A DNA stretch of 64,000 bases, taken from positions 3,162,001-3,226,000 of the forward strand of contig NZ_CP009517.1 of assembly GCF_000970305.1 (NCBI RefSeq), given 5' to 3'. How positions within the stretch are numbered: the first letter of the stretch is position 1; each line of letters starts with the position of its first letter. The notes under the pieces are model-generated. The model worked only from the letters and a program-made list of their open reading frames with translations, ran no database searches and was not told the DNA's origin. The DNA comes from Methanosarcina barkeri 3 (GTDB lineage: Archaea; Halobacteriota; Methanosarcinia; Methanosarcinales; Methanosarcinaceae). The translations under genes and the position numbers were made by a program. This document shows positions 17,472-43,835 of this stretch, piece after piece.

Positions 17472-17873
17472 ATGGATATAATAACCTGGGAGCCGAAAGA
17501 CTCCTTGAAAGTTGCGGAACTATATGCGAATTACGAATACTCAAAGGATATTAAAATAATAGATGAGTGGACTGACCTCACCGGTTACCGCACGTTTATA
17601 ATTTACGAAACTGAAGACGAAAAAACGTATGCAGCTTCCGTCTTTCCTTTCATGGGGTTGTGCAGGTTCGAGACCTTTCCGGTTATGAAACTGGACAAGT
17701 TTATGCAGCTTGCCCAAAAACTTGCCGAGAAAGCCGGAGAAGAAAAGCCAGGTGCTGAGCAGGGAGAAGGCGGAAAAACCTCAGAAGAGATTTTTCAGCA
17801 GATAGAGAACCTTGAAAAGAGAATTGAACGCCTTGAACACCATTCTTTTGTTCAACAGGAAGATGTAACGTGA
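17472..17873 (+). CDS. DUF3303-like protein with C-terminal coiled coil
   Basis: About 133 residues: an N-terminal alpha-beta domain of the ferredoxin-like DUF3303 kind (TWEPKD at the start, then a conserved-looking RTFIIYET and TYAASVFPFMGLCRFETFPV), then a helix and a charged linker, ending in a short heptad-like coiled coil with ENLEKRIERLEHH. I place the start at ATG 17472 rather than 17463 because GAGGG at 17457-17461 is properly spaced only for the second ATG. No partner is adjacent. Function is unknown, and the family name is a moderate-confidence call. Confidence 0.65.
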   Translation: MDIITWEPKDSLKVAELYANYEYSKDIKIIDEWTDLTGYRTFIIYETEDEKTYAASVFPFMGLCRFETFPVMKLDKFMQLAQKLAEKAGEEKPGAEQGEGGKTSEEIFQQIENLEKRIERLEHHSFVQQEDVT

Positions 17874-18018
17874 AACTTAAACCCCACAAGAAGATCTATA
17901 TTCAAATCAAAAACTTAGTTTCAACATAAATACTCAGTCCCAACGTAAAGACATGGTTCAGACATCGAAACCACGTCTGAAACCAAATTTTAGTCCTGTT
18001 GAGAGTTTTATCTCAGAT

Positions 18019-18558
18019 TCATTTTTCAAGCGCATTTTCAAATTTTTCCTCATTCATGCGGTAGATGTTCCACCCATTTACAGAACTTCCTCCAAGGTGT
18101 TCGTAGAATTTCCTGGCAGGGTTCCAGTCAAGGACTGCCCATTCCATTCTCCCGCAGTTTCTTTCTTTTGCAAGCTTTACACAATGTAGAAACATTGCTT
18201 TCCCAATCCCTTTTCCCCGAAACTCGGGTTTTAAGAAAATGTCTTCGATATAGAGTCCCGGCTTTCCTACAAAAGTAGAGAAATTGTGGAAAAAAACAGT
18301 AAACCCGGCAGGAACCCCGCCCAGCTCGGCAAAGAAAACCTCGGCATAGGGCCTTTTTCCGAATATGCCCTCAGCCAGGTTTTCTTCCGTCGCCATGACA
18401 AGGTGGGAAAGATTCTCAAACCTGGCAATGCCTTTGACAAACTCAAGAATCAAGGGAACATCTTCAATTTCTGCAGCGCGGATTTTCAAGTCTGGTTTTA
18501 TTCCGTCCTCTAAAGACTTTATTTTATCTTCTGTAAGTTTCATTTCAGGCTCTGACAT
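18019..18558 (-). CDS. GNAT-family N-acetyltransferase
   Basis: This 179-residue protein ends in a complete GNAT domain: IRAAEIEDVPLILEFV, the central FHNFSTFVGKPGLYIEDIFLKPEFRGKGIGKAMF acetyl-CoA loop (R/Q-x-x-G-x-G/A about residue 115), and a C-terminal ARKFYEHLGG strand. It resembles the diamine (spermidine/spermine) acetyltransferase-like subgroup. A roughly 20-residue acidic extension precedes the domain. It is divergent from the DUF2156 gene, 200 bp away. The substrate is unknown. Confidence 0.85.
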   Translation of the reverse strand: MSEPEMKLTEDKIKSLEDGIKPDLKIRAAEIEDVPLILEFVKGIARFENLSHLVMATEENLAEGIFGKRPYAEVFFAELGGVPAGFTVFFHNFSTFVGKPGLYIEDIFLKPEFRGKGIGKAMFLHCVKLAKERNCGRMEWAVLDWNPARKFYEHLGGSSVNGWNIYRMNEEKFENALEK

Positions 18559-18758
18559 TTTCCGATTCCTTTATTAAATTGATAGATATAGATAATTTCA
18601 TAGATTTAATGAAACTGAATATATTAAACTAAGTGTATGAAATTGAATGTATGAGACTGAGTTTATTTTGAGTCCCACTCTTAATGTATGTAATTTTTAC
18701 TAGTCTGAGAGTTTCAACAAAAATAATTATAAAGCAATAAGTATGAAGTAAAAAAGTC

Positions 18759-19682
18759 TTGTTTAAAATGCTTGGTAAAAAAGATTTCAAACCGGTCATG
18801 CTTGCAGATCGAGCTTTTTTCGAGCGCCATTACGCACTCTATCCGCAAACCCACAGTGACAACACTTTCACAAGCATGGTCTGCTGGAACCATTTTATGC
18901 ATTACCAGTATGCATACGTGAAAGGGAATGTAATTCTATCGTGCACTGCTGCAGGAGTGACCCGGCTACACCCGCCTATCGGCCCTCACGATCCTACGCT
19001 CATGCGGGAGGTAGTACGGCTGGCGATGGAAATAGGCGATGATAATAAGCCCCTCACCCTTATCGACCCTGAGACTGCACAGTGGATGAAGAAAACCAAT
19101 CCTGACCTTATGCTAGTTCCGGATCTGAACCATTTTGAGTACGTGTACCGGGCTCTCGACCTTGCTGAGCTTCCAGGAAAGAAGTACCTCAAAATTCGTA
19201 GCCAGGTTAACAAATTCAGGAAGAATTACCGGCACACGGTTGAGCCAATAACCCCTGAAAACCGGGAAGAAATAACGGAGTTTCTCATAAAGTGGTGTGA
19301 GAGCAAAAAATGCGAGGAGAATTTCACTCTTGCCCACGAAATAGAAGCTGTATCCTACGCGATCGAACACTTAACTGAACTGCACCTGAGAGGCCTTTTG
19401 ATAAGGGTCGGTTCACAAGTATGTGCCATTTCTCTTTTTGAGTGTCTAAACACTGATATGGCAGTGATTCATTTTGAGAAAGGGCTGCCGGAATATCAGG
19501 GAATATACAAGGCAATTAATTCCGAAACTGCAGCGCTTCTTGTCAATGAAGTGGAATACATCAACAGGGAAAGCGATCTTGGCATCAGTGGACTTCGAAA
19601 GGCAAAGCTTAGATATCACCCGCACCATATGGTAGAGGTTTATTCGCTTAACCGACGAACCTGTTTTCCAGTAATCAAATAA
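18759..19682 (+). CDS. DUF2156 family protein (GNAT-like lysyl-transferase fold)
   Basis: The 307 residues match the DUF2156 pattern, related to the C-terminal catalytic domain of bacterial phosphatidylglycerol lysyltransferase: PQTHSDNTFTSMVCWN early, then EYVYRALDLAELPGKKY in the middle and the double-GNAT C-terminal ending with LRKAKLRYHPH. There are no membrane segments, unlike full-length MprF, so it is probably soluble. Start is TTG 18759 or, three codons later, ATG 18768; neither has a good ribosome-binding site. What it transfers in archaea is not known. Confidence 0.8.
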   Translation: MFKMLGKKDFKPVMLADRAFFERHYALYPQTHSDNTFTSMVCWNHFMHYQYAYVKGNVILSCTAAGVTRLHPPIGPHDPTLMREVVRLAMEIGDDNKPLTLIDPETAQWMKKTNPDLMLVPDLNHFEYVYRALDLAELPGKKYLKIRSQVNKFRKNYRHTVEPITPENREEITEFLIKWCESKKCEENFTLAHEIEAVSYAIEHLTELHLRGLLIRVGSQVCAISLFECLNTDMAVIHFEKGLPEYQGIYKAINSETAALLVNEVEYINRESDLGISGLRKAKLRYHPHHMVEVYSLNRRTCFPVIK

Positions 19683-28936: not shown

Positions 28937-29150
28937 AGTTTGAGCCTCTTTTACTTGGTATGGAATAAGGTATTGTGAATAGAGGTAATGACGTAAACAG
29001 AGTCTAAAATTCTTTTTCTGATATAAATGCTTATTCTATAGCGAATATTTATAACTCGGATGAGAAGACCAAGTCTTAACACATTATAATATACTTTGAT
29101 AGTAGACACCTTAAGTTCAGACGCAGAATAGGGAATATCGAATAGGGCAA

Positions 29151-29304
29151 TATGTCTATTATCCGATTATGTCTATTATCCGATTATGTCTATTATCCGA
29201 TTATGTCTATTATCCGATTATGTCTATTATCCGATTATGTCTATTATCCGATTATGTCTATTATCCGATTATGTCTATTATCCGATTATGTCTATTGTCC
29301 GATT
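29151..29304. repeat. 17-bp tandem repeat upstream of serS
   Basis: Nine near-identical copies of TATGTCTATTATCCGAT; only the last differs (TTGTCC for TTATCC). It occupies the 600-bp gap between serS and the decayed nucleotidyltransferase. The low divergence suggests recent expansion. No gene is seen in 28937-29553. Confidence 0.92.
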
Positions 29305-29553
29305 TCTGGAGCTGAAACTTTAACCTTGTGACGGGAAGGAACTAACCAAAAACTTGACCCCGGCTACGTTTACGGTCATGTAGTGACCGACCTTTCCGAA
29401 AAAAATGGAAGCGGAAAAAGGAGTACAAATTTGTAATACAGCAGATTATATTATGCAAAGGACACAGTACTTTATACGCGGGAAGATCGCTCAAAACGTA
29501 GATTAACTTAAAAATGGGTGGAAACAAGTATTGCAGGATATAAAGGAACATAT

Positions 29554-29843: not shown

Positions 29844-29897
29844 GGCAGACCGTTCGTGCAGGTACCCAGCAATGAAAGAATAAGGAAGAAAATAAAA

Positions 29898-30206
29898 ATG
29901 CCTTCCCAACAACTTAAAAATGCTGACCATTTCATAAGAATACTCAGGCAACACCTGCCTGAGATCAGAGAAAAATACAGCGTGAGCTATCTCGGAATTT
30001 TCGGGTCATACGTTCGTGGGGAACAAACAAGTGAAAGCGACCTTGATGTTCTGGTGGAATTTGATGAAACACCTGGCCTTCTGAAATATATTGAGCTTGA
30101 GTATTACCTTAGTGATCTGTTAGGAGTAAAAGTAGACCTGGTAACCAGAACCGGTCTCAAGCCAAATGTTGGAAAACATATTCTCAATGAAGTGGTTTCT
30201 TTATGA
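29898..30206 (+). CDS. MNT-type nucleotidyltransferase (MntA-like)
   Basis: About 102 residues from ATG 29898, which has AAGGAAG nine bases upstream; the longer frame to 29856 has no such site. The core motif FGSYVRGEQTSESDLDVLVEF is the nucleotidyltransferase GS-x10-12-DxD catalytic signature, followed by VKVDLVTRTGLKP, as in MntA. MntA proteins neutralise a HEPN-domain RNase toxin by transferring AMP to it. The stop overlaps the ATG of a truncated HEPN-like frame at 30203 (ATGA), so the antitoxin now appears to lack its toxin. Confidence 0.83.
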   Translation: MPSQQLKNADHFIRILRQHLPEIREKYSVSYLGIFGSYVRGEQTSESDLDVLVEFDETPGLLKYIELEYYLSDLLGVKVDLVTRTGLKPNVGKHILNEVVSL

Positions 30207-31059: not shown

Positions 31060-31563
31060 ATGAATAACTTTAATTATGAGAAATATAATTCAGATTTTGA
31101 TCGCATGCTTAACTCAGATGTTGAAGTGACAAAAGCAAGATTAGAAGAAGTACCCCAAATAAAATCCATTGCAGATAAGAATAAAAACTTAATTGGATTT
31201 ATTCTAAGAGGTTCGCTAGTCGAATCGATTGAAAAAGAAAATTTGGTCGTGTTAAAGTACAAAAAAATTATAATTGGATTTATAAACTATCATCATAGAA
31301 AAGATTCTCAGACTACTTTATATGAAATATGTGTTGATGAAAATAATCGGAACAAAGGTTATGGTAAAATATTGATTAATTACCTACTTCAAGAGGCAAA
31401 ATCTCAAAAGAAAAAAACATTATTATTGAATTGCCCAATTGATGGCATTGCACATTCATTTTACTTGAGATGCGGTTTCAAAATAAAGAGTACACGCACC
31501 CATACGAAAAATGGGAAAAAACTGGTAACTTGGGTGTATAAACTCGATGATAACAATACGTAA
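31060..31563 (+). CDS. GNAT-family acetyltransferase at the head of the island
   Basis: 167 residues with a GNAT domain: TKARLEEVPQIKSIA at the start, a central IIGFINYHH strand, then LYEICVDENNRNKGYGKILINYLL, whose NRNKGYGK is the R/N-x-x-G-x-G acetyl-CoA loop (about residues 103-110), and the C-terminal GIAHSFYLRCGFK. The acetyl acceptor is unknown. It precedes the TGT-like gene by 50 bp on the same strand and is probably co-transcribed with it. If the neighbour inserts a deazaguanine base into DNA, this enzyme could acylate that base; that is inference only. Confidence 0.83.
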   Translation: MNNFNYEKYNSDFDRMLNSDVEVTKARLEEVPQIKSIADKNKNLIGFILRGSLVESIEKENLVVLKYKKIIIGFINYHHRKDSQTTLYEICVDENNRNKGYGKILINYLLQEAKSQKKKTLLLNCPIDGIAHSFYLRCGFKIKSTRTHTKNGKKLVTWVYKLDDNNT

Positions 31564-31612
31564 AAAAGTTTCCAAAAAGCAGTAGATCACTAATTTCTGG
31601 TTAGGTGATAAT

Positions 31613-32578
31613 GTGGAGTTCTTTGTATCTATGTCTGCTCATCCTGGTTTGATTAAGAAGATGAGAGATTCACTTAAAGATTTTGAAAAAATAAAATGGC
31701 CACTCAAAAACGTATTATATACACCAGTTTTTTCAACCAAAAAAACCAGTGAGGCAATAAAAGATTTGAAAGACAATGATGGTAGTAAAATAATGTTTGA
31801 TTCAGGTGGCTTTTTTGTCCAACAAGGAAAAATAACCACTCAAGAACTTTTCAGTAAATTAACAGATTTTTATTCGCAAAATGAATGGGGAGATTACTAT
31901 GTTTTGCCTGATAGCCCCCCAGTAAATGGAGACTCAGACCTTATCGTAGAATATAAGGTGAGAGATACAATTACTAACGCAAAAATATTTCATGATCAAC
32001 TAAAAGAAAATATTCAGAAAAAATGTATTCCTGTAGTTCAAGGGCATAATAAAGAACAGATATTTCGATGTGTAAGAGAATACTCAGATTTGAATGTTTC
32101 TAGAATTGGTTTTGGTAGTTTTGGAACATGTGGGAGTAATAACGGTATAAATTTCTTGACAAGTAAATCAATGGAAAATGTAGAATATATGATGAATCTG
32201 CTAAAAGATTATTCTCTAGAAGTTCATGCTTTTGGGGTAGGAGGAACATCAAGCTTATCAAAGTTGTGTGAGGCAGGTTTTACATCATTTGATAGTGCTG
32301 GCTGGAAAAGAGCAGCTGCATATGGAGATGTGTTATTTCCCTTTCATAGTACACACAATATAACTCATAGATCATCTGAAAAGAGCTGTAGTATATTAAG
32401 CAGAAATAACTTTGAGAAAGTAAAAACCGAATCAAATCATGCTTGTTATTTTTGTGAAGATTTTAATAAACTTCAGAGCCAGGTGTATTATCGATACTTA
32501 CATAACATGATTGCAATATTTGATACTGTTGAGTTCTTAAAAAAATATCCTATATCATCACATAATGATATCCCATGA
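31613..32578 (+). CDS. TGT-fold transglycosylase resembling DNA-modifying DpdA
   Basis: This 321-residue protein has the tRNA-guanine-transglycosylase barrel landmarks: DSGGFF near residues 63-68 (matching the DSGGFQ base-binding Asp loop), HAFGVGG near 204-210 (YLMGVG in TGT), FDSAGWKRAA near 226 (FDCVxPTR, carrying the nucleophile Asp), and a reduced zinc site C-x2-C near 278-281 with His in LHNM. It lacks the C-terminal PUA region of archaeal tRNA archaeosine TGTs and has a divergent zinc site, as in DpdA/TgtA5, which exchange guanine for preQ0 in DNA. Its location beside a BREX-like operon supports a DNA target. It starts at GTG 31613 with TAGGTGAT upstream. The alternative is a divergent tRNA enzyme. 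Confidence 0.72.
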   Translation: MEFFVSMSAHPGLIKKMRDSLKDFEKIKWPLKNVLYTPVFSTKKTSEAIKDLKDNDGSKIMFDSGGFFVQQGKITTQELFSKLTDFYSQNEWGDYYVLPDSPPVNGDSDLIVEYKVRDTITNAKIFHDQLKENIQKKCIPVVQGHNKEQIFRCVREYSDLNVSRIGFGSFGTCGSNNGINFLTSKSMENVEYMMNLLKDYSLEVHAFGVGGTSSLSKLCEAGFTSFDSAGWKRAAAYGDVLFPFHSTHNITHRSSEKSCSILSRNNFEKVKTESNHACYFCEDFNKLQSQVYYRYLHNMIAIFDTVEFLKKYPISSHNDIP

Positions 32579-32775
32579 TTTCCTAAGCGAGTATTTATCC
32601 ATTATCCGCCTCCGATCAATTTTTTGGTACTTATTAGCTATCTTTTCACTATATTTGGCTAACTATAATATTTAGGGATAAATTGGATGATAGAGTAGAT
32701 GAACTCTTAATCTTTAAGATATTTTAAGATATCTGCAATTAAGAATATAATTCAAATAAATATTAATTAGTATAT

Positions 32776-32797
32776 AAAGCATATTTCTATGCTTTTT
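32776..32797 (+). terminator. Hairpin plus T-run after the TGT-like gene
   Basis: Seven-base stem AAAGCAT/ATGCTTT (32776-32782 and 32789-32795) with a six-base loop, running into TTTTT. It lies 200 bp after the stop and separates the two transcription units of the island. I see no gene in the 570-bp gap 32579-33149. Confidence 0.45.
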
Positions 32798-32903
32798 ATA
32801 TAAAGTATTTCCCTAAATGTTCCTTAATATAAATTTTTTTCCTTTGATAGTGTTTTTTACTTCATTTTATTCTCTTTATGGACTAACTATATTATATTAA
32901 TTC

Positions 32904-32916
32904 TTAATATATAAAA
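32904..32916 (+). promoter_or_regulatory. Candidate TATA box of the seven-gene operon
   Basis: TTAATATATAAAA lies 234 bp upstream of the first start codon. Transcription would begin near 32,940 and give a leader of about 210 bases. AATATAAACATAAAA near 33053 is a nearer alternative. Both are guesses from sequence in very A+T-rich DNA. Confidence 0.3.
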
Positions 32917-33149
32917 AGGTATTTATGCACTCCGTTATTAAGAAATTATTATAGATAAACTTAAGTTTATATTCATATTTTTAGGCTCACCTAAGGGAAA
33001 ATCGACAATTTACAGCTTTAACTTCAAAGCTTCAGGCTTGCTAAAATTAACGCAATATAAACATAAAAAAAGCATAAACACTTATGATTTTGATCCTAAG
33101 TTTGTAGTTCTACTATTAAGTGACGATTCCAACATAAAGAGATGCTTCC

Positions 33150-33959
33150 ATGAGTGATTTTCATCTTGATATAAGTGTAGTACCAAAGAATATATTTGAG
33201 TTTATTGAAATTGCTGCTGACTTATCAAGTTTAGACGATTCAAAATTATCGAAAGAATCGGAGGAAAAATTAGAGAATTATAAAAAAAGACAATCTCACC
33301 TTACAGCAATGGTCAAAAAAGTGGGAATAACTTCTAAAGAATTAAAATTAACTGAATTAGGAGAAAAGTTATATAAAATAATGTATGACGATGAAACTCT
33401 TTTTTATAATATTTTGCATTATTTACTTTACACTCAGTATTATTTTGAGAAAAGAAATCACGCTTCTTGGGTATACAATAAATTTGTAGATATTCTCTAC
33501 GAGAACAGAGAAATTGACGAAATGCGTATAAGTGATTTCAATGAAAACTTCGCTCTAAAAATAGTAAACCTAGCCAGAGAAGAACTAAATCAAGAGGGAA
33601 TATCTTTTAGAGGTCGAAGTATATCACCTCTAATTTCATGGGTTGGCTCACTTAATCCAAGCTGTATAAATCATGAAAATAAAAAAATATCGTTTAAACT
33701 AAGAAACTTTTGTCAGCCACAGTTGTTTTTGTTAGCTATTGATTATGCTTTCAAAAAGAGAAAAGCAGAATATGGATCTCTTATACTTATAACAGATAAT
33801 ACGATAGCTGACATCTGTAAGATATGCTTAATAGATCCTGAATCTTTTGATTCTTGTTTTGATTTGTGTAAAAAAAGTTTTGATTTCGTTGATTTCTCAA
33901 TTGGATGGGAAAAACATATTCGATTAAATAGAGAACCTAAGATAGATGATTTTATATGA
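33150..33959 (+). CDS. Unrecognised 269-residue first gene of the island operon
   Basis: I do not recognise the family. The N-terminal 100 residues look all-helical with a winged-helix flavour (TSKELKLTELGEKLYKIMYDD); the middle has HASWVYNKFVDILYENREI and REELNQEGISFRGRSISPLISWVGSLNP; the C-terminus has LILITDNTIADICKICLIDP. The general layout (helical N-terminus, conserved Trp/Arg middle, small C-terminal domain) recalls DUF4007-type proteins that accompany DNA-modification defence systems, but I cannot confirm that. It starts the operon; its TGA overlaps the next ATG by four bases (ATGA). Possible roles are regulator or DNA-binding adaptor. Confidence 0.7.
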   Translation: MSDFHLDISVVPKNIFEFIEIAADLSSLDDSKLSKESEEKLENYKKRQSHLTAMVKKVGITSKELKLTELGEKLYKIMYDDETLFYNILHYLLYTQYYFEKRNHASWVYNKFVDILYENREIDEMRISDFNENFALKIVNLAREELNQEGISFRGRSISPLISWVGSLNPSCINHENKKISFKLRNFCQPQLFLLAIDYAFKKRKAEYGSLILITDNTIADICKICLIDPESFDSCFDLCKKSFDFVDFSIGWEKHIRLNREPKIDDFI

Positions 33960-34447
33960 ATTTTATTTCAATCCATAATAAAATTAAAGGTAGCGTTTCT
34001 GAAGATTGGCTTACGGATTCTCAAAAAAATATTTTGACAAATATATTGGACAACAAGATACATGATCTTATTAACGTTTATGGGCCTGATGGTGTTGGAA
34101 AAACTTTTTTGGGTTGGGCACTACAAAAGCGCAATTATGCTACATACTTTTCTGATATTGAAAATGTAATAGAAGGATGTCATATTGCTGTAATCGACAA
34201 TGGGAACTCCTCTTTTGAAGAATACAAAACCATTTTAAAAATTATGGAACTAAAAAGAATAAAGCGTGTAATATATTTAAGTAGGAATAAACTTGACGCA
34301 AAAGTTTATTCACTAAATCTTGCTCTCACAGCCACTGATATAGAAAAAGTGGTAAAAAACATTAATAGTGTTGGTTTAAACATTTACGATTTGGATTGTG
34401 ATAACCTATGGGTCTTAATATTTAAAAAGTGTAGGTGTTATATTTGA
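33956..34447 (+). CDS. Small P-loop NTPase
   Basis: The 163-residue protein has one clear Walker A motif, GPDGVGKTFLGWAL near residues 43-56, and a plausible Walker B strand IEGCHIAVIDNGN near 72-84. It is too short for a complete AAA+ module with lid, so it may be an accessory ATPase or a partner of the large ATPase that follows. The start overlaps the previous stop (ATGA), and its own stop overlaps the likely TTG start of the next gene. The pair of a small and a large P-loop protein in a row is a useful signature of this operon. Confidence 0.75.
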   Translation: MNFISIHNKIKGSVSEDWLTDSQKNILTNILDNKIHDLINVYGPDGVGKTFLGWALQKRNYATYFSDIENVIEGCHIAVIDNGNSSFEEYKTILKIMELKRIKRVIYLSRNKLDAKVYSLNLALTATDIEKVVKNINSVGLNIYDLDCDNLWVLIFKKCRCYI

Positions 34448-37400
34448 ATACTGATACTAAATATTTTGAAACAATTATAGATAAAAGAGAGTGCATTGCC
34501 ACATTTTCTGCTGATGATTTAATAAAAGTTCCTAGCCAAGTGGACTCTTCATACAATAGGCATATATTCACCCACATTTCCATAGGCGAAACTGATGAAT
34601 ATGAAAAAAAATTAGTCCAAAAATTAAATGAAGGAGTATCATTAGTTGGTTATATTTCTGCCCCTTATGGCTATGGGAAAACAACGACTGCAATTCACGC
34701 ATGGATTACATGTCAAGATAAGCAAATAATGACAGTTCCACCTTTCACTTGCAATTCATTAAAAGGTATAATGGACGCTACATATGGTTGGATAAAGTAC
34801 AAATTTGGGATGGAATCTCCAGATTACGTAGTAGACATAGAGGGAATATACCGAAAATATGCAGATCTTTCCATAGATAGTTTAGCTAAAAAAGACTGCG
34901 AAGATGTTGGTATTCCTTTCGAACAAGCAAGAAAATCTATTGAAAATAAGATATCAAGTGGAATTCTTAATCTTAGAATTACCCCTGAAATATTAACACA
35001 TTTCTTAGACTCTTGCATGGACACAGTATTAAAAGCAGGTTTTAAAGGCCTTATTATTTTTGCAGATGAATTTCAGACTTATTTTGATCAGAAAAATTTT
35101 GCAACAAATGAGATTACAAATGAATGGAGAGAATTAATTTGGAATATAATTAATAAAAACAAAAAGTATGGAATAATATTCATTATCCCAGAAGAGAAGG
35201 AAAGTACAATTAATGAGCGAGCCGGAGATATAATTCAGCGATTAAGAGAGCAAAGATTAGTAATAAATCTTAAGAATGTTTATGACAGAAAATTCCCTGC
35301 ATATTTAATGGAAGAATATGCTAAAAAATTTAAATTCGACCCTTCAAAACTAGTAGATAAGTACACATTATCTTCTGTTGGCCAAATTGTCACTGACAAA
35401 GATCTTGGGAATGGTCCAAGAACAGTAGTTAATATTTTCAAATTAATATTTCAGCACTATAACAATACAAGTCAACAATATACGGTAATAAACTTAATCA
35501 ACAGTTATTTAGATGGAAACATTGTACATGATGGACCAGATCAAAAGATAGTTTCCTCAGTAAAAAAAGCTTTATCTTCTGATAGGGTTAAATCCGAAAA
35601 CGATAGGAGTGTAATAAAATTATTGGCTGCTTTCCCCAGAGGTTGTCCACTAGAAGTATTAGATATTTATGGTCTTCATAACAATTTCGTTAACTTAGAA
35701 AAATCACTACTAGGCGATGTTATTAAGAACCTTGCTGAAGGACCAACACTAAAGGATTTATCCAACCAATCAGATGGAGAAGTATCAAAAGTAGATGAAT
35801 TAATTAAAAAGTTTAGAGATCAGTATGATAGAAATGATATTTGTGCAGAAGCTGCAGAGAAGGCATTTATAAAGTATATATTTGCTGAAATATTTGGAGA
35901 AAGAAAAGGCGGACTGATTGGTTTTGCAGGCCTTAATAATATATATCCTACACGTTACGGGTACAAAGAATGTATAATTACTGGAAGTTTTGATGAAAAA
36001 TATCCATATAGGACTTTACACCTTACAATATCTATAAAAGAAAATAAGAATAACGAAAATAAAAATATAAAAGAAAATAAAAAACATCCAATTGTCAACC
36101 CGAATGAAGACATAGATCTTGGATTCTATTTGAATTACTTAGACTATGGTCAGCATGAGATTATAAAATATGATACAAATAGAATTTTAATTGTTTTAGA
36201 CTTGAATAAGAAAATTGCGAGAAATGGGCAATTTCCTAACGACTTAAGGAAATTACAAGATTTTATAAGCCCAGAAGAAATCACTCCCTTACTTTCTTTG
36301 AGCCTTACAAGCTATATAGATAAATTCTTAGAAGATGCCGATATTAAACAGAACGAGAAAGGTCAACTTGAGTATTTGAAGCAAAATTTAATAAAACATT
36401 CAATAATATCTTTATTTGATGAAAAATTAAAAGACACAAGTGGATACAACATAAAAAGAACTGGGAAGAAATTAATTGAAGATCTGTTTTCGAATGTTTG
36501 TGAATCATTATATCCATCTTATAAAACTTTTATTCATTCTAATCAGTGGCGAGAATCAATTACACGCTACATGAGTGCATTAAGTTGTATAAAAGTATCC
36601 CAGAGAAGGGGTCATGAGGAACTACAAGGCGAAAAAGCAGATATTGCAGCACTTTTTGGATATACTAAATTACATGCAGGATTTGAATTATTGTTAGGGG
36701 TTTGGAAGGAAAATCTTCTTTATTCGGATTGGGAGAAAGGAAAAACTGCAGTTATAAAATTTTTGATACATCCGCTTGAAAAAGAAATTCTGGGTTTTAT
36801 TGAAAATAACGAGAGTATATCTTTGGATGATGTATTTAAAATCGGAAAAAATCTCGGATATACAGAAGAAGAATCCGATGTTGCATTAGATCTTTTAGCT
36901 AATCGGCAACTTATATGCGAAAACAATTCTATATTCTCAAAATATACAGCCGATTTGTCAGCTGACGAGCTTCTATTTGAAATAGAAGAATTAGAAACAT
37001 TATATCATGATTTAAAGGATATTGATTTGACCTTAGACGATAAGGAGATAATCACTAAATTAGAGAAGTATGAAGAAAAAGCGAAGAATTCAGAAGACTA
37101 CGAAATTCTTTATGAAATTAAATGGGAGCTTAAATCAATAAGAGATACATTAAAAAATAAACAAAAAATTTTGGAGAACAGTTTAAATAATAATTTAACC
37201 GGACTGACCAAAAAAATTGATGAAATTGTTCGTCAAAGCATGCCTAAAGAACTGAACGAAAATCCACAAGGTGTAGTGGGTTTTGTCCAACCTATAGTGG
37301 AAAGTAAAATCCGTATTTCTGCCCAATACAAGTCATTGAAAGAAAAATTCACTAAACTAAATGATGACATTAAAAAGATACAAAAGTTACCAAGAAATTC

Positions 37401-38325
37401 AATTGATGATCTTAAAGAATTGGATACAAAAAATAGAGGTTATAAAAGTCAACTTGAGGAGCTACAAAAAGATAAAAATCAGTTGACTAAATATATGAAA
37501 GGATATGTTAAATGGTTGAATATACTTGAAAAAAGTAACCAAGTTTACACGAATGTCTCTGAATATAACGAAAAAATTGAACCTATAGATGAATTTAGCC
37601 GTGTTCAGGAATATATTAAGGACGTTTCTTATAAATTTGCAGAACATAAAAATGAATTTTTATTAGATTTTGAAAATTATGAAACTAAAATAGAAGAAAT
37701 TGAAGAAAGTTATATGGCAAAAGAAAAACAACAAAACAGTTTATTTGATACAAAAAAAGAGAAGTATGAAGCTTTATTGAGAAATATTGGATTTAGTGGA
37801 AGATTAAGTTCGCGACTTCAAAAAAGTGATATTGAAGGATCTCACAGGGATTTGTACAAGGAAATTGAGCATCAATTTAATGAGAGTTTAAGCAAAAAGA
37901 TTACAGAAATCGAGGAAAGTAGAACGAACATTCTTCACGCAAAACGGATAAGGGGTCTCAACGTTGACAATTTGTTAATAGAAGTAGAGGGCATCAAAAA
38001 CAGTATTGAACCACTTAAAGAAATAAGTATAGAAAGCATAAAAAATGAAGATAAATTCGAAGATAGCATAAATAATATTAAAGAGTTGTTTGTAAAATAT
38101 GAGGAATTTAAAGGAAATAAAATAAAATTAATTAATCAAGCAAAAGATGCAGAAAATGAATTAAGTAAAAAAGTACTAGAATTTGTGAAAAAAAGAAGGG
38201 ACCTAAGTTTAGAAGATCTGTTAACAGATTTTGATTGCAGTATAGAAGATATGGAAGATTCTCTTTTAGAGTTATTTAAATGTAATCAAATAAAGATCTC
38301 AGTATCAACGAGGTTTCGAGATTGA
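34444..38325 (+). CDS. Large BrxC-like P-loop ATPase with C-terminal coiled coil
   Basis: About 1293 residues from TTG 34444 (TTGA overlap with the previous stop; GTG 34435 is possible). An N-terminal ATPase domain has Walker A APYGYGKTTTAIHAW near residues 73-87 and Walker B GLIIFADEFQTYFD near 200-213; the middle part carries helical and KAP/STAND-like regions; from about residue 840 to 1230 it is a long coiled coil, ending in a winged-helix-like DLSLEDLLTDFDCSIEDM. Size, domain order and neighbouring PglZ are those of BrxC/PglY ATPases of BREX phage defence or the large ATPase (DpdH-like) of Dpd islands. It probably drives DNA or protein remodelling in the complex. Strongly A+T-rich codon use suggests transfer. 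Confidence 0.72.
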   Translation: MNTDTKYFETIIDKRECIATFSADDLIKVPSQVDSSYNRHIFTHISIGETDEYEKKLVQKLNEGVSLVGYISAPYGYGKTTTAIHAWITCQDKQIMTVPPFTCNSLKGIMDATYGWIKYKFGMESPDYVVDIEGIYRKYADLSIDSLAKKDCEDVGIPFEQARKSIENKISSGILNLRITPEILTHFLDSCMDTVLKAGFKGLIIFADEFQTYFDQKNFATNEITNEWRELIWNIINKNKKYGIIFIIPEEKESTINERAGDIIQRLREQRLVINLKNVYDRKFPAYLMEEYAKKFKFDPSKLVDKYTLSSVGQIVTDKDLGNGPRTVVNIFKLIFQHYNNTSQQYTVINLINSYLDGNIVHDGPDQKIVSSVKKALSSDRVKSENDRSVIKLLAAFPRGCPLEVLDIYGLHNNFVNLEKSLLGDVIKNLAEGPTLKDLSNQSDGEVSKVDELIKKFRDQYDRNDICAEAAEKAFIKYIFAEIFGERKGGLIGFAGLNNIYPTRYGYKECIITGSFDEKYPYRTLHLTISIKENKNNENKNIKENKKHPIVNPNEDIDLGFYLNYLDYGQHEIIKYDTNRILIVLDLNKKIARNGQFPNDLRKLQDFISPEEITPLLSLSLTSYIDKFLEDADIKQNEKGQLEYLKQNLIKHSIISLFDEKLKDTSGYNIKRTGKKLIEDLFSNVCESLYPSYKTFIHSNQWRESITRYMSALSCIKVSQRRGHEELQGEKADIAALFGYTKLHAGFELLLGVWKENLLYSDWEKGKTAVIKFLIHPLEKEILGFIENNESISLDDVFKIGKNLGYTEEESDVALDLLANRQLICENNSIFSKYTADLSADELLFEIEELETLYHDLKDIDLTLDDKEIITKLEKYEEKAKNSEDYEILYEIKWELKSIRDTLKNKQKILENSLNNNLTGLTKKIDEIVRQSMPKELNENPQGVVGFVQPIVESKIRISAQYKSLKEKFTKLNDDIKKIQKLPRNSIDDLKELDTKNRGYKSQLEELQKDKNQLTKYMKGYVKWLNILEKSNQVYTNVSEYNEKIEPIDEFSRVQEYIKDVSYKFAEHKNEFLLDFENYETKIEEIEESYMAKEKQQNSLFDTKKEKYEALLRNIGFSGRLSSRLQKSDIEGSHRDLYKEIEHQFNESLSKKITEIEESRTNILHAKRIRGLNVDNLLIEVEGIKNSIEPLKEISIESIKNEDKFEDSINNIKELFVKYEEFKGNKIKLINQAKDAENELSKKVLEFVKKRRDLSLEDLLTDFDCSIEDMEDSLLELFKCNQIKISVSTRFRD

Positions 38326-39383
38326 AGTTAAGTGAACTGGATAACCTATTATCCAAAACTCCAGTTTATTTGTCCCTCGATAGCTTAGTCTCATTATGTT
38401 ATTTAGATAACATTACAATATTCCATAATAGGAGAGATTTCTGGAGAAAGATAGATCAATTAGAGCCCCTGAAGTTATGTAGGTATGTAATACTCGACGA
38501 TCCAGATTATCGGTTACCGTATGTAAGGCTTAAACACAATCCTTTCACAAATAATCTGAATTCAATATTATCAAAAAAATACGAAGAAATTCAGAGGCTA
38601 ATGTTGACTCAAAAAGATCTTTCTCAAGAAATATTATTTAGATCAAATGCTGAAATTGTCGTATTAATTTTGATTGATGGTTTATCTTACATTGATTGTC
38701 TAAAGTATAGTCCAGAACCTTGTATCGTAAATGGAACCACGACAACAGAGTCAGGATTTACAAATATAGTATATGGAAGTGAGAATCGCCCTCTATCATT
38801 TAAGTTATATGATAAGGGGTACATGAGAAGATTCGGTTTTACTTATTGGGAAAGAGAAAACAATGAACTTACTAATAAGCTTTTCAAAGGCTTTAATGAG
38901 GTTATTAAAGTCAGTTCCTTTGAAGACGTCATAAAGCATGTTCGCTCTATGGAACTAAAACCACACACGTTTCTACAAATTATAAGGAATGGGTTAGACA
39001 GGTATGCGCACAATATGCATGATAAACCACTAAAAGAGCAGGAAATCGAACAAATTTTTAAAGATGTTTTTGAGCTCAAAGAAACATTTGAATCTAAAGG
39101 AATAACAGCTAATATATTTGTTACATCAGATCATGGATTACTGTGGAAATACGAACATGAGTTTAAAGTAATCGAACCTTATAATGAAAGCCCAAGATAC
39201 TTGAAAGGGTTGCATAAAATCGAAGGTCATTCAGTAATCTCAAAACTGAATGAACATTACAATACTCTTTTAGCTTATCCTTACATACTTCGAAGCTTCA
39301 GAAATAATGAATGGGGCATACATGGGGGAATTTCATTTGAAGAATCAATAACACCATTTATAGAATATAAGGTGGATAAATGA
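38322..39383 (+). CDS. Short PglZ-like alkaline-phosphatase-fold protein
   Basis: The 353 residues show the PglZ/alkaline-phosphatase superfamily landmarks: the metal-binding Asp in VLILIDGLSYID near 114-124, a Thr-rich nucleophile loop TTTTESGFTNIVYG near 138-151, DHG in FVTSDHGLLW near 266-275 and the terminal GIHGGISFEESITPF near 331-345. PglZ is a core BREX subunit, here much shorter than the roughly 800-residue bacterial form, as if only the catalytic domain is kept. It starts at TTG 38322 overlapping the previous TGA (TTGA) and its own stop overlaps the next ATG (ATGA). The phosphatase substrate is unknown. Confidence 0.8.
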   Translation: MKLSELDNLLSKTPVYLSLDSLVSLCYLDNITIFHNRRDFWRKIDQLEPLKLCRYVILDDPDYRLPYVRLKHNPFTNNLNSILSKKYEEIQRLMLTQKDLSQEILFRSNAEIVVLILIDGLSYIDCLKYSPEPCIVNGTTTTESGFTNIVYGSENRPLSFKLYDKGYMRRFGFTYWERENNELTNKLFKGFNEVIKVSSFEDVIKHVRSMELKPHTFLQIIRNGLDRYAHNMHDKPLKEQEIEQIFKDVFELKETFESKGITANIFVTSDHGLLWKYEHEFKVIEPYNESPRYLKGLHKIEGHSVISKLNEHYNTLLAYPYILRSFRNNEWGIHGGISFEESITPFIEYKVDK

Positions 39384-40567
39384 ACAATCTATTTATTGGT
39401 AAAGACAAAAAAACAGATGAAGATGCTTTCATTGATGCAAGTAAGTCAAGAGCAATTTTAATATGCGGAAAAAGAGGCAGCGGAAAAAGCTATACTTTAG
39501 GAAATTTAGCTGAAGAGCTACAGTCTAACTGTAAGGATGCCTTGTGTTTAATTATAGACCCAATGGGTATATACTGGACAATGTGCAACCCAAACTATGA
39601 TCAGGAGAATGTTCTATGGGAGTGGGGCTTATCTCCAAGAGGACTTAATGTAAAAATATTGGTTCCTGGAGACCCAAAAAACAGATATGGTGATGAAGTA
39701 GTAAATGTAATGGAAGAGCATGGAGTTCAGTTTCAGTCGATCAGTTTGAATCCCTCTGACATATCTCCTGACGGATGGTGCGACTTATTTAATCTAAGCA
39801 TTAATGATGCAATGGGAATAGTCCTTTATAGAGCTGTTCAGGGATTAAAAAAGCAGTACAAAAATGATTTTTATATTAAGGATATTATAAATTCTATAGA
39901 GTATGATCCAAAAGCTAATGATAAAAGCCGCGAAGCACTGCTAAATAGGCTTGAAATGGCTAATTCATGGGGCTTATTTGGAGATACATACACAAATACA
40001 TGGGATTCTTTTGATACAAATTCTGTAAATATTGTTGATTTAAGCGTATTAGATCCTGGACGTTACGGAACCCGAAATTTAGTTGTCTCTATATTTTGTA
40101 GGGACCTCTTCACAAAGAGAACGGAAGCAAGAAGAAGAGAAGAGTTAGGATTGAGTACAAGTACTCCAAAAGTATGGCTAATGATTGATGAGGCTCATCA
40201 GTTTGCACCTTCTGGGAAGTCTACATTATCAAAAGAACTACTAGTAAGGTGGGTAAAAGAAGGAAGACAACCTGGATTATCCTTAGTAGTAGCTACCCAA
40301 CAACCATCCGCAATTGACCATGAGGTTCTATCTCAATGCGACATAGTTATTTCACACAAGATAACTACGAAAGAAGATGTCGATGCATTAAATAAATTGA
40401 GTCAAGACTACATGGGAGGCGAATTAAAAACATACATTCGCAATATTAAAGGTAACGGGGAGGCTGTAATGGTTGATGATGAAAATGAAAAAGTAAGTAT
40501 GATACAAATTAGGCCCCGGAAATGTAAGCATGGAGGCGGGGAACATAAAGAAAAAAACAAATATTAA
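39380..40567 (+). CDS. HerA-like ATPase
   Basis: 395 residues of the HerA/FtsK (DUF87) P-loop class: Walker A GKRGSGKSYTLGNLAEEL near 30-47, Walker B VWLMIDEAHQFAP near 264-276, and sensor region LSLVVATQQPSAID near 300-313, followed by SQCDIVISHKIT. HerA hexamers translocate DNA and usually pair with a nuclease (NurA, Sir2 or others); none is next to it here. It ends with an unusual charged tail (KCKHGGGEHKEKNKY). The 3' end overlaps the next gene by 38 bp, so the translation is coupled. It may be the motor of the system. Confidence 0.87.
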   Translation: MNNLFIGKDKKTDEDAFIDASKSRAILICGKRGSGKSYTLGNLAEELQSNCKDALCLIIDPMGIYWTMCNPNYDQENVLWEWGLSPRGLNVKILVPGDPKNRYGDEVVNVMEEHGVQFQSISLNPSDISPDGWCDLFNLSINDAMGIVLYRAVQGLKKQYKNDFYIKDIINSIEYDPKANDKSREALLNRLEMANSWGLFGDTYTNTWDSFDTNSVNIVDLSVLDPGRYGTRNLVVSIFCRDLFTKRTEARRREELGLSTSTPKVWLMIDEAHQFAPSGKSTLSKELLVRWVKEGRQPGLSLVVATQQPSAIDHEVLSQCDIVISHKITTKEDVDALNKLSQDYMGGELKTYIRNIKGNGEAVMVDDENEKVSMIQIRPRKCKHGGGEHKEKNKY

Positions 40568-41513
40568 GGAAAAAATAGGAATTACTGCTCTTGTTCCTCC
40601 GGAAATAATATACAGTTGCAACAAAGTTCCGGTTGATGTTAACAATTTTGTAACATATTCTACACTCCAGCCTAGAAACAAACTTTGTGCGTGGTGTGCA
40701 ATATGGAGAGAAGCGATAATTAAAAAAGAGATTGATATTGATCGTCTTGTGGTAGTAGCGGGTGGAGACTGTAACAATGCACTAATAGACGGGGAAAGAG
40801 TTTCTTTCAGCGGTATCCCGACAGGATATTTTTTTTATCCATTTGATGGAGATTCTAATTATATGAAAACACAATTAGAATCATTATGCCTCTTCTTAGG
40901 AGGACTTTACGACAACTCGATCTTTCGACGAATCCTGCAATTAAAGAAAAAAGCCTTAGAAATTGATTTGATGCGTCTAAACGATGAAATATCTTCATCT
41001 ACATGTTTTGAGAAACTTATCTCGTGTAGTGATTTTCAAAGTGATTTAAATAATTTTGAAAAAAAACTTGATGAAACGCTTCAGAAAAATGAAAAAGTAG
41101 AATATACAAACCGAATAGCAATGCTAGGCCTTCCTCCCATATATAATGATTTTCATGAAACTGCAGCTTCTTTTGGGTTACATATTGTATATGATGAATT
41201 ACCATATGAGTTTGTTAGAATTACAGGAACTTCAATAGAGGAGTTAGCTAAAAACTATTCCACTTACACATTTGCTAGAAATCTAAAATACAGGATAAAT
41301 TTTCTAAAAAGAGAATTGTCAAAAAGAGATGTGGATGGTATTGTTCACTATACGCAGTTTTCTTGTCACCATAATCTTGAGGATGATATTATCCGTAACG
41401 TAGTTGACAAACCAGTGTTAACAATACAAGGAGACATGCCTTCTAGAACTCCTGAGCAGGTAAAATTGCGTCTTGAAGCATTTTCTGAAATGTTGAAAGG
41501 TGAAGTACATTGA
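40530..41513 (+). CDS. 2-Hydroxyacyl-CoA dehydratase-like (HgdB/double-cubane) Fe-S protein
   Basis: The 327-residue protein matches the HgdB/BcrB superfamily: PPEIIYSCNKVPVDVN near the N-terminus, a Cys pair KLCAWC near 50-55, GGDCNNA near 77-83, and the C-terminal DGIVHYTQFSCHHNLEDD near 270-285 with GDMPSRTPEQVKLRLEAF. The Cys residues are those that hold the reductase Fe-S cluster. These proteins accept ATP-driven low-potential electrons from a BadF/HgdC partner, and the next gene encodes exactly that. Its place inside a defence-like operon, rather than beside a CoA transferase, is unusual. ATG 40530 overlaps the preceding gene. The substrate is unknown. Confidence 0.82.
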   Translation: MEAGNIKKKTNIKEKIGITALVPPEIIYSCNKVPVDVNNFVTYSTLQPRNKLCAWCAIWREAIIKKEIDIDRLVVVAGGDCNNALIDGERVSFSGIPTGYFFYPFDGDSNYMKTQLESLCLFLGGLYDNSIFRRILQLKKKALEIDLMRLNDEISSSTCFEKLISCSDFQSDLNNFEKKLDETLQKNEKVEYTNRIAMLGLPPIYNDFHETAASFGLHIVYDELPYEFVRITGTSIEELAKNYSTYTFARNLKYRINFLKRELSKRDVDGIVHYTQFSCHHNLEDDIIRNVVDKPVLTIQGDMPSRTPEQVKLRLEAFSEMLKGEVH

Positions 41514-42226
41514 TAGGATTCGATGTAGGTAGTCGAACTGCTAAACTTGTTAGATTTGATGACGATAATATATCTGATTATAAAATAATTAATAGTATGA
41601 ATTGGGAAAAACTATTTGATACTCTTAACTTAAAAGATGTTAGTAGTGTTTGTACCACAGGTTATTTTAGAAAAAGTATACCTAACAGTTGGAACATAAC
41701 AGAAATAACTGCTTCGATATTTGGGGCTAAATACTATTACCCTAAGGCAGATGTTATAGTAGATATTGGAGGTCAGGATACTAAAGTAATTGATATACGA
41801 AATAATTCATTTAAGCTTAATGATAAATGTAGTGCAGGTACAGGCGCTTTTCTAGAATTTGTTGCAAAATATTTTGACCTAGAAGTGGAAGAACTTGAAA
41901 AATTACATAAAGAATCTGAAAAGCCAATTACATTAAATCAAACCTGTGGAATTTTTGCATTATCTGAAATGATTTCACAAGTTGTAAACCACGAAAAAAT
42001 AGAAAATGTAATTTCAGGAATGCATTATTCCTTCGCACATCGGATATCTCACATGGTTCCTGAATGTAGATCTGTTGTGTTAGTCGGTGGTGTAGTTAAG
42101 AATAAAGGTATAGTTGATGCTTTGTCAAATATACTCAATTGTGAAATATTGATTCCACCAGATCCTCAAATTATCAATGCTTTAGGAGCCGCAAGGTACG
42201 CTCAACAGTTAAGAAGTAAAAGTTAA
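41510..42226 (+). CDS. BadF/HgdC-type ATPase activator
   Basis: 238 residues of the ASKHA-fold activator family (archerase): the phosphate loop GFDVGSRTAKLV at residues 3-14, DIGGQDTKVI near 85-94, the Cys of DKCSAGTGAF near 107, the second Cys of NQTCGIFALSEMISQ near 146, and VVLVGGVVKNKGI near 190. Two Cys, one per monomer pair position, hold the 4Fe-4S cluster at the dimer interface, so it should hydrolyse ATP to push an electron to the preceding HgdB-like protein. The start TTG 41510 overlaps the previous TGA (TTGA). It is the last gene of the operon. Confidence 0.88.
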   Translation: MIGFDVGSRTAKLVRFDDDNISDYKIINSMNWEKLFDTLNLKDVSSVCTTGYFRKSIPNSWNITEITASIFGAKYYYPKADVIVDIGGQDTKVIDIRNNSFKLNDKCSAGTGAFLEFVAKYFDLEVEELEKLHKESEKPITLNQTCGIFALSEMISQVVNHEKIENVISGMHYSFAHRISHMVPECRSVVLVGGVVKNKGIVDALSNILNCEILIPPDPQIINALGAARYAQQLRSKS

Positions 42227-42354: not shown

Positions 42355-42668
42355 CCTCATTCCTCCCTCTTCCTCACCTGCACCCTCACAACTTTCTCAT
42401 CCTGATCCAGGAAAACTCAAACCACCCCTTCACATCAACCAGTTCCTCAACAGATATTCTCAGTAAACTCCAGATCCCCTCCTTAAGCTTTTAACAAGTA
42501 TCTTAGGAATTCCCGGTCGCTATCAAAAATTTTTCATTCAGGGTCCGGTTTGAGAATTTCACGATCTAGAGATTCTATCGCGAATCGGTTTGGGAAGGAT
42601 CAAAAACTGAAAACGGCAGGTGGGGAGAGAGGAGCCGTACGTGCGAAAAATATATTTTTACAGAAATA
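42355..42668 (+). repeat. Dispersed 320-bp direct repeat, copy 1
   Basis: This stretch aligns with 43150-43474 over about 320 bp, with high identity in the core CTTAAGCTTTTAACAAGTAT, GGTCCGGTTTGAGAATTTC and GATCTAGAGATTCT blocks and ends at AATATATTTTTACAGAAAT. It lies right after the island operon and is non-coding; the 75-codon open frame over it is Pro/Ser-rich artefact. It may mark the island border. Confidence 0.8.
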
Positions 42669-43149: not shown

Positions 43150-43474
43150 CTTCCCCTCTCCTCCTCTTCCTCTCCTGCATCCTTAGAATATTCTTAAAAC
43201 CCCGATCCTGGCAAGTTCAAACGACCTCCTTCACATCACCCAGTTCCTCAACAGATATTCCCAGTAAATTCCAAAACCCCCTCCTTAAGCTTTTAACAAG
43301 TATCTCAGGAATTCCCGATCGCCATCAAAAATTTTGCATTCAGGGGTCCGGTTTGAGAATTTCACGATCTAGAGATTCTGTCGCGAATCGGTTTGGTGAA
43401 GGATCAAAAACTAAAAAACGGTAGGTGGGGAAAAGGGGAGCAGTACGCACCGGAAATATATTTTTACAGAAATA
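43150..43474 (+). repeat. Dispersed 320-bp direct repeat, copy 2
   Basis: Same orientation as copy 1, with small indels (for example CAGGGGTCC against CAGGGTCC). The end AATATATTTTTACAGAAAT lies about 140 bp before the HicB-like gene at 43617, so it may contribute a promoter; the A+T-rich end resembles a TATA element. Confidence 0.8.
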
Positions 43475-43616: not shown

Positions 43617-43835
43617 ATGAGAGAATTTACTGTAGTTATTGAACAGGACGAAGATGGAGTCTATGTAGCTTCTGTGCCTGAACTTCCAGGATGTCATACA
43701 CAGGCAGAGAGTCTTGACGAATTAAACAGAAGAATAAAAGAAGCAATTGAGCTGTACCTTGAGGTTGAAGCCGAAGAGGGAGAAAAGGAACATCTTGATT
43801 TTGTCGGGATACAGAAGGTCAAAGTTGAGGTTTGA
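43617..43835 (+). CDS. HicB-family antitoxin-like protein, orphan
   Basis: 72 residues with the HicB half-RNase-H fold signature: REFTVVIEQDEDGVYVASVPELPGCHTQAES, then an amphipathic helix EAIELYLEVEAE. HicB proteins bind and silence the HicA mRNA interferase. There is no HicA beside it on this strand; the next gene is the opposite-strand hicA at 43927. No C-terminal HTH is seen. The ATG at 43617 follows GACGAGGTCA, a usable ribosome-binding site. Confidence 0.85.
   Translation: MREFTVVIEQDEDGVYVASVPELPGCHTQAESLDELNRRIKEAIELYLEVEAEEGEKEHLDFVGIQKVKVEV

Follow-up and report, generated by a model that had tools for sequence, protein, structure and literature searches.

QueF is the known enzyme between 7-cyano-7-deazaguanine (preQ0) and preQ1. 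In DNA, dPreQ1 is known from phage Dp-1 and virus HVTV-1, both of which carry QueF-type genes (PMC6884629). The BRC operons, the closest described systems to the locus analysed here, universally encode PglZ, a BrxC-like ATPase, an NTPase, a BrxA-like protein and HerA, optionally with a GNAT N-acetyltransferase and a tRNA-guanine transglycosylase (TGT), and the main text of their description leaves QueF unnamed and assumes at most dPreQ0 (PMC12839542). For tRNA, QueA, QueH and Tgt were noted in DPANN and Methanosarcinales in 2021 and, since the main text of that study is without QueF, the preQ0-to-preQ1 step was left without an enzyme (PMC8204110). In the enzyme family of benzoyl-CoA reductase (BCR), 2-hydroxyacyl-CoA dehydratase (HAD) and double-cubane cluster protein (DCCP), according to PMC11971306, DCCPs have no known biological function and enzymatic Birch reduction is confined to CoA esters. 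Here we analysed a stretch of 64,000 nucleotides of Methanosarcina barkeri 3 (contig NZ_CP009517.1, positions 3,162,001 to 3,226,000; hereafter the window), in which a BRC operon ends with genes for an HgdB-type Fe-S protein and a BadF/HgdC-type ATPase. From gene content and distribution, this pair very probably replaces QueF without being homologous to it, as a preQ0 reductase that is driven by ATP and sensitive to oxygen. Literature searches pairing queuosine or 7-deazaguanine with the BCR/HAD/DCCP family found no paper.

The HgdB/BadF pair and QueF in BRC operons

The initial annotation had placed an HgdB-like and a BadF/HgdC-type gene at 40530-42226, translationally coupled to genes for PglZ and HerA, and had offered reduction of the preQ0 nitrile as one of several possible roles. 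Both open reading frames (ORFs) are there, with Pfam and TIGR00241 matches; the HgdB ORF overlaps the HerA ORF by 38 bp and the BadF ORF by 4 bp. Gene order and homology to Haloplanus and haloarchaeal loci identify the whole as a BRC operon, two of its genes being assigned by position alone.

Through PglZ homologues we reached five further archaeal loci, one on a Haloplanus plasmid (L046), one from the same class as the window organism (L051) and three (L052, L053 and L054) from other families within the phylum, whose sequences mark them as haloarchaea. L046 and the last three encode TGT, the BrxA-position protein, the NTPase, the large ATPase, PglZ and HerA in the order of the window, together with GNAT; in L051, cut by the contig end, the large ATPase, PglZ, HerA and GNAT are visible and TGT was not seen. 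All six loci, that of the window included, carry a GNAT gene. A QueF-like gene (PF14489) occurs in all five comparison loci, recognised by Pfam in four and by alignment in L054, and the aligned proteins have E-x-KSLK-like residues, a motif of NADPH-dependent QueF; L046 also has queC, queE and queD. The HgdB/BadF pair is in none of the five. The slot 3' of HerA reads HerA-QueF-GNAT in L051 and HerA-HgdB-BadF in the window, where a search of all six frames for a hidden or broken QueF found no trace in the gap 32578-33150 or around the operon; the window genome (a single contig of 4.56 Mb) is without any PF14489 match. Judged by gene content and order, the pair stands in QueF's place in the window operon.

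Among the comparison loci, L052 has two different QueF-like genes (18728-19135 and 17592-18020), possibly a reductase and an amidinotransferase. A conserved protein of about 120 aa, with the pattern SLSxIDSKRxxxEKQxDGKSGE, is encoded near the haloarchaeal BRC/TGT loci (L046:7444-7815, L052:19278-19643 and L053:2600-2953), and its L046 copy had no Pfam match.

Co-occurrence with QueA and exclusion of QueF

Among 72 genomes of the same order as the window organism, all 21 with QueA carry the pair, and QueA was found in none of the 48 pair-negative genomes (Fisher test, p = 3e-15). The three genomes with the pair and no QueA are the window genome, with its BRC operon, and two incomplete ones (61% and 79%). 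Only one of these 72 genomes has QueF, located on a phage-like contig with QueC and QueE (L084; contig C66 of G077, a Methanoperedens-type bin) that probably belongs to a virus with 7-deazaguanine DNA. Of 21 pair-bearing archaeal genomes from a separate scan, 19 had QueA and none had QueF.

A QueA match was found in 62 of 292 Thermoplasmatota genomes, 49 of them clear; the other thirteen, weak at E 1e-36 to 1e-70, were excluded from the test as doubtful QueA. We give the statistics both with and without the divergent Thermoplasmatota pairs described below. Within the clear-QueA genomes, QueF is present in 0 of 12 with the pair and in 29 of 37 without it (p = 1.4e-6); for the close pair clade alone the counts are 0 of 5 and 29 of 37 (p = 0.0015). 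QueA-negative Thermoplasmatota controls gave a full-length pair match in 0 of 18 and QueF in 1 of 18. In these surveys, the pair occurred in genomes that need preQ1 and lack QueF.

Linkage to queuosine genes

A scan of 84,980 species returned 63 loci with the pair, all archaeal by title, spanning ANME-2, Methanoperedens, Thermoplasmatota, Hydrothermarchaeota and unclassified Euryarchaeota. The genes queA and tgt lie directly divergent from the pair in L089, L091, L095, L101 and L125 (ANME-type), L090 (Thermoplasmata), L128 and L149, and about 2.5 kb from it in L143. The order in L128 is queH-tgt-queA-HgdB-BadF; queH lies within 6 kb of the pair in L122-L124, and queC and queE are beside it in L135. 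The queA, tgt and queH assignments were checked with Pfam. Whether the pair always neighbours PglZ and HerA had been posed as a check: that linkage was seen only in the window, the other loci being without PglZ/HerA bar a short HerA-like match in L110, which leaves the preQ0 reductase reading unharmed. Viral contigs scanned with the PglZ and HgdB families, and phage records searched with the HgdB protein, gave no match.

On plasmid pILYOP01 of Ilyobacter polytropus (Fusobacteriota), a co-directional run, HgdB-BadF-queD-queE-folE-queC (L271:4974-9128), starts with HgdB and is without queF. This HgdB, the only plasmid relative, is 36-45% identical to seven divergent Thermoplasmatota proteins and groups with their clade in the tree (100/99), sister to the window clade and apart from the paralogues. 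Because the HgdB of a que operon groups in this way, both clades of the pair are tied to preQ0 chemistry. The idea that the 30%-identical Thermoplasmatota pairs are a different enzyme was dropped, given the Ilyobacter que operon, the 45% identity and the shared clade.

Part of the divergent-clade loci (L261-L265, Thermoplasmatota) have genes resembling 2-oxoacid/indolepyruvate:ferredoxin oxidoreductases, which could feed electrons to the divergent pair, and in L264 queA lies about 6 kb from the pair. Upstream of the Ilyobacter HgdB gene is a terminator-like leader (L271, ~4860-4950); an Rfam scan of that locus gave no preQ1 riboswitch and one sub-threshold hit.

Sequence, predicted fold and conserved cysteines

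The HgdB-type protein matches Pfam HGD-D over the cut-off (PF06050, E 9.2e-24). The BadF-type protein matches BcrAD_BadFG (PF01869, E 4.5e-33), TIGR00241 CoA_E_activ (180.9 bits, above cut-off) and, by profile, the HAD activator 4eht (E 4e-56). Sequence searches of the PDB matched only the C-terminal part of the HgdB-type protein. Its AlphaFold model (pLDDT 86) aligned with BzdO, DCCP and HadC over more than 300 residues at Z 27-29 (VIA-align), the next unrelated folds reaching Z 6.5 at most, and the modelled fold is that of the BCR/HAD/DCCP family.

In an alignment with 65 relatives, exactly three cysteines of the HgdB-type protein are invariant, C53 (KLCAW), C81 (GGDC) and C279 (QFxCHH, here FSCHH). 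The cysteines that the initial annotation had picked out in these three motifs are real; the second one of KLCAWC is not conserved. The two cluster cysteines it had named in the ATPase, C107 and C146 (in KCSAGTG and TCGIF), are likewise invariant. C30 of the HgdB-type protein was considered as a fourth ligand or thioimide cysteine and rejected, as it is not conserved in the wider family.

The catalytic [4Fe-4S] cluster of BzdO is described as bound by three cysteines and a water, and the [8Fe-9S] cluster of BzdN as containing six further, cysteine-ligated irons. C53, C81 and C279 were matched to BzdO Cys95, Cys128 and Cys380 by order and spacing only. The [8Fe-9S] cluster of DCCP requires six cysteines, against three invariant ones here, and the HgdB-type protein scores 39 bits with NF040772, whose cut-off is 350. 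With only three invariant cysteines, as in BzdO, it is predicted to bind one cluster that leaves an iron site open, and not a double cubane.

Proposed reaction and alternatives

We read the pair as a preQ0 reductase because homologous operons without it have QueF, the two are mutually exclusive, and the pair co-occurs with QueA and is linked to que genes. The nitrile reduction first suggested from the window is thereby strongly supported, and the ring reduction or redox-cofactor regeneration suggested along with it found no support. Displacement of QueF is the simplest interpretation, since preQ0 precedes the step in all three settings, namely the DNA operon, queuosine in tRNA and the run in Ilyobacter, and preQ1 follows it in the first two. 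Acetylene, hydrazine and azide are reported substrates of ATP-dependent reduction by DCCP (cited in PMC11971306); as acetylene and azide are among them, reduction of a triple bond is plausible for this fold family.

For electron donor, substrate, product and order of steps we propose the following. Low-potential electrons, from ferredoxin, would enter through the BadF-type homodimer, which would raise their energy by hydrolysing ATP and pass them from its own [4Fe-4S] cluster to the HgdB-type protein. The [4Fe-4S] cluster of the latter, bound by C53, C81 and C279 and with an open iron, would then convert the C-N triple bond of preQ0 into the aminomethyl group of preQ1, a four-electron reduction. 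In most carriers preQ1 would then be converted to tRNA queuosine via TGT, QueA and QueH; the pair very probably fills the missing queuosine step in many anaerobic archaea, and apparently also in a bacterium. In M. barkeri 3 the pair would have been captured into the BRC operon, where it may feed preQ1 to the TGT/DpdA-like marking reaction or reduce preQ0 in DNA, and the GNAT protein would probably acylate the new amine. That the pair supplies a preQ1 mark to DNA in the window operon is likely, and acylated dPreQ1 is our tentative candidate for the final mark. We offer, with some reserve, the wider proposal that ATP-dependent Fe-S nitrile reductases are widespread, make preQ1 in anaerobic archaea and some bacteria, close the archaeal queuosine gap and supply an N-acylated dPreQ1 mark to BRC here.

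A variant of this reaction, in which the pair acts on DNA-bound dPreQ0 or yields another reduced product (an aldehyde, an imine or a ring-reduced base) in the window operon, is unlikely. It would suit the encoding of the pair with TGT and GNAT, and for phage QueF the choice between free and DNA-bound preQ0 was stated to be open (PMC6884629); the linkage to queC, queE and queD, however, suggests the free base, and the relatives in tRNA-queuosine pathways are expected to use free preQ0 because bacterial TGT takes preQ1. It is quite improbable that the pair is instead an alternative epoxyqueuosine reductase, acting at the last queuosine step: the same co-occurrence with QueA would follow, but L122-L124 and L128 already have QueH next to the pair, in L087 and L088 QueH lies near queA-tgt, the window genome carries the pair without QueA, hence without epoxyqueuosine, the exclusion concerns QueF, and the Ilyobacter pair sits in a preQ0 operon.

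The overlap with HerA and the location within an AT-rich island would agree with a defence component, such as a redox sensor or a low-potential reductase for HerA/PglZ, unrelated to base chemistry. We regard this as very improbable, the relatives being found outside defence operons, with queuosine genes, and five homologous operons having QueF in place of the pair. Least probable of all, and scarcely credible, is the chance capture of a stray CoA-ester dehydratase or reductase, to which the family name and the fold would point. As the initial annotation had observed, no CoA substrate gene is near: none of the ten window ORFs scanned is a CoA-metabolism gene, and none was recognised by eye in the sampled neighbourhoods of other pairs. 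Homologues accompanied by CoA genes would have spoken for such a capture; the neighbours are que genes, in several phyla, or unrelated genes, and the HgdB-type protein has 327 aa against 375-442 aa in CoA-binding members.

Several points weigh against the pair being a preQ0 reductase. Only one genome joins it to a BRC operon, and many pairs, for example in Methanoperedens, are not beside que genes. The statistical tests ignore phylogeny, and many comparison genomes are incomplete metagenome-assembled genomes. QueF was not found on the 0.96-Mb Ilyobacter plasmid in a search that covered the plasmid only, the chromosome lying outside it. Eight clear-QueA Thermoplasmatota (G537, G554, G562, G585, G610, G631, G760 and G817) have neither QueF nor the pair, and on their account there must be a third route or enzyme, salvage or missing contigs.

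The operon and its surroundings

The genes of the plus-strand block 31060-42226, namely GNAT, the TGT/DpdA-like gene, five BREX-like genes and the pair, are listed in Table 1. The G+C content of the block is ~28-37%, that of the flanks mostly 37-49%, and the GC skew is positive across the block and flips sign at its end. From this AT-richness and change of skew, the block is probably an acquired island of which the pair is part. In the congeners searched, neither PglZ nor TGT turned up, and the pair gave only weak C-terminal matches to paralogues. The window TGT is 32-39% identical to the TGT of haloarchaeal BRC loci and keeps the Asp of DSGG (D63) and FDS (D227) and the His/Cys of the Zn site; DpdB/C were not recognised among the window ORFs scanned.

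Table 1 Genes of the island in the window.
Feature	Coordinates	Strand	Evidence and remarks
GNAT N-acetyltransferase	31060..31563	+	Pfam Acetyltransf_7 E 1.8e-12; predicted acylation of preQ1 / dPreQ1 aminomethyl group
TGT/DpdA-like DNA guanine transglycosylase	31613..32578	+	PF01702 E 9e-6, DpdA NF041059 E 2.5e-6, both under curated cut-offs
BRC component at DUF4007/BrxA-like position	33150..33959	+	homologous to same-place gene in L046, L052-L054; named by position after PMC12839542, Pfam without convincing match
Small P-loop NTPase at BRC STAND/BrxB-like position	33956..34447	+	homology, Walker A GPDGVGKT; named by position after PMC12839542
Large BREX-type (BrxC/DUF6079-like) ATPase	34435..38325	+	25-28% identity, ~1300 aa, to L046, L052-L054; L046 counterpart annotated 'BREX system ATP-binding domain-containing protein'
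Short PglZ-like protein	38322..39383	+	weak PglZ matches; 28-37% to PglZ of five BRC loci
HerA/FtsK translocase	39380..40567	+	PF01935 E 1.2e-15; 56-61% identity to HerA in the five comparison loci
HgdB-type Fe-S protein, proposed catalytic subunit of ATP-driven preQ0 reductase	40530..41513	+	PF06050, 327 aa
BadF/HgdC-type ATP-dependent electron activase, HgdB-type partner	41510..42226	+	TIGR00241, 238 aa

Around the island, a series of about ten 17-bp tandem repeats, perfect or nearly so (TATGTCTATTATCCGAT), lies upstream at 29117-29337, and an MntA-like nucleotidyltransferase gene adjoins it at 29856-30206. Just downstream are an imperfect duplication of ~240 bp (42427-42668 and 43228-43474) and a duplicated pair of 149 bp at 43618/45964, a possible trace of integration. 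An Rfam scan of the window gave tRNA only.

Comparison with known systems

If the pair is the predicted reductase, the missing preQ0-to-preQ1 enzyme would be named for ANME/Methanoperedens, Hydrothermarchaeota and some Thermoplasmatota, the BCR/HAD/DCCP family would gain a physiological substrate other than a CoA ester, and nitrile-to-amine conversion would have a second, unrelated enzymatic route. The chemistry of the BRC mark also becomes testable, as preQ1-type and probably acylated, not only dPreQ0.

With BRC as published (PMC12839542) the loci studied here have in common PglZ, the large BrxC-like ATPase, the small NTPase, the BrxA-position protein, HerA, GNAT and TGT, and they differ in having QueF or the pair, which points to preQ1-type marks. 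The carriers have the same queuosine gene set as in the DPANN/Methanosarcinales study of QueA, QueH and Tgt (PMC8204110, 2021). The predicted reaction and pathway place are those of QueF, to which the pair has no sequence relation; the pair is predicted to depend on Fe-S and ATP, whereas QueF uses NADPH. DCCP with its reductase DCCP-R has the same fold (Z 29), a single type of catalytic subunit with a BadF-type reductase, and reduces small molecules with ATP, but it is 19% identical, and its [8Fe-9S] cluster has six further cysteine-ligated irons, against three invariant cysteines in the HgdB-type protein. HadBC and class I BzdNO share the fold (Z 27-29) and, in BzdO/HadB, the three-cysteine [4Fe-4S] cluster; those enzymes are heterodimers with a CoA channel, whereas the pair has just one catalytic subunit, of smaller size, and is not found among CoA genes.
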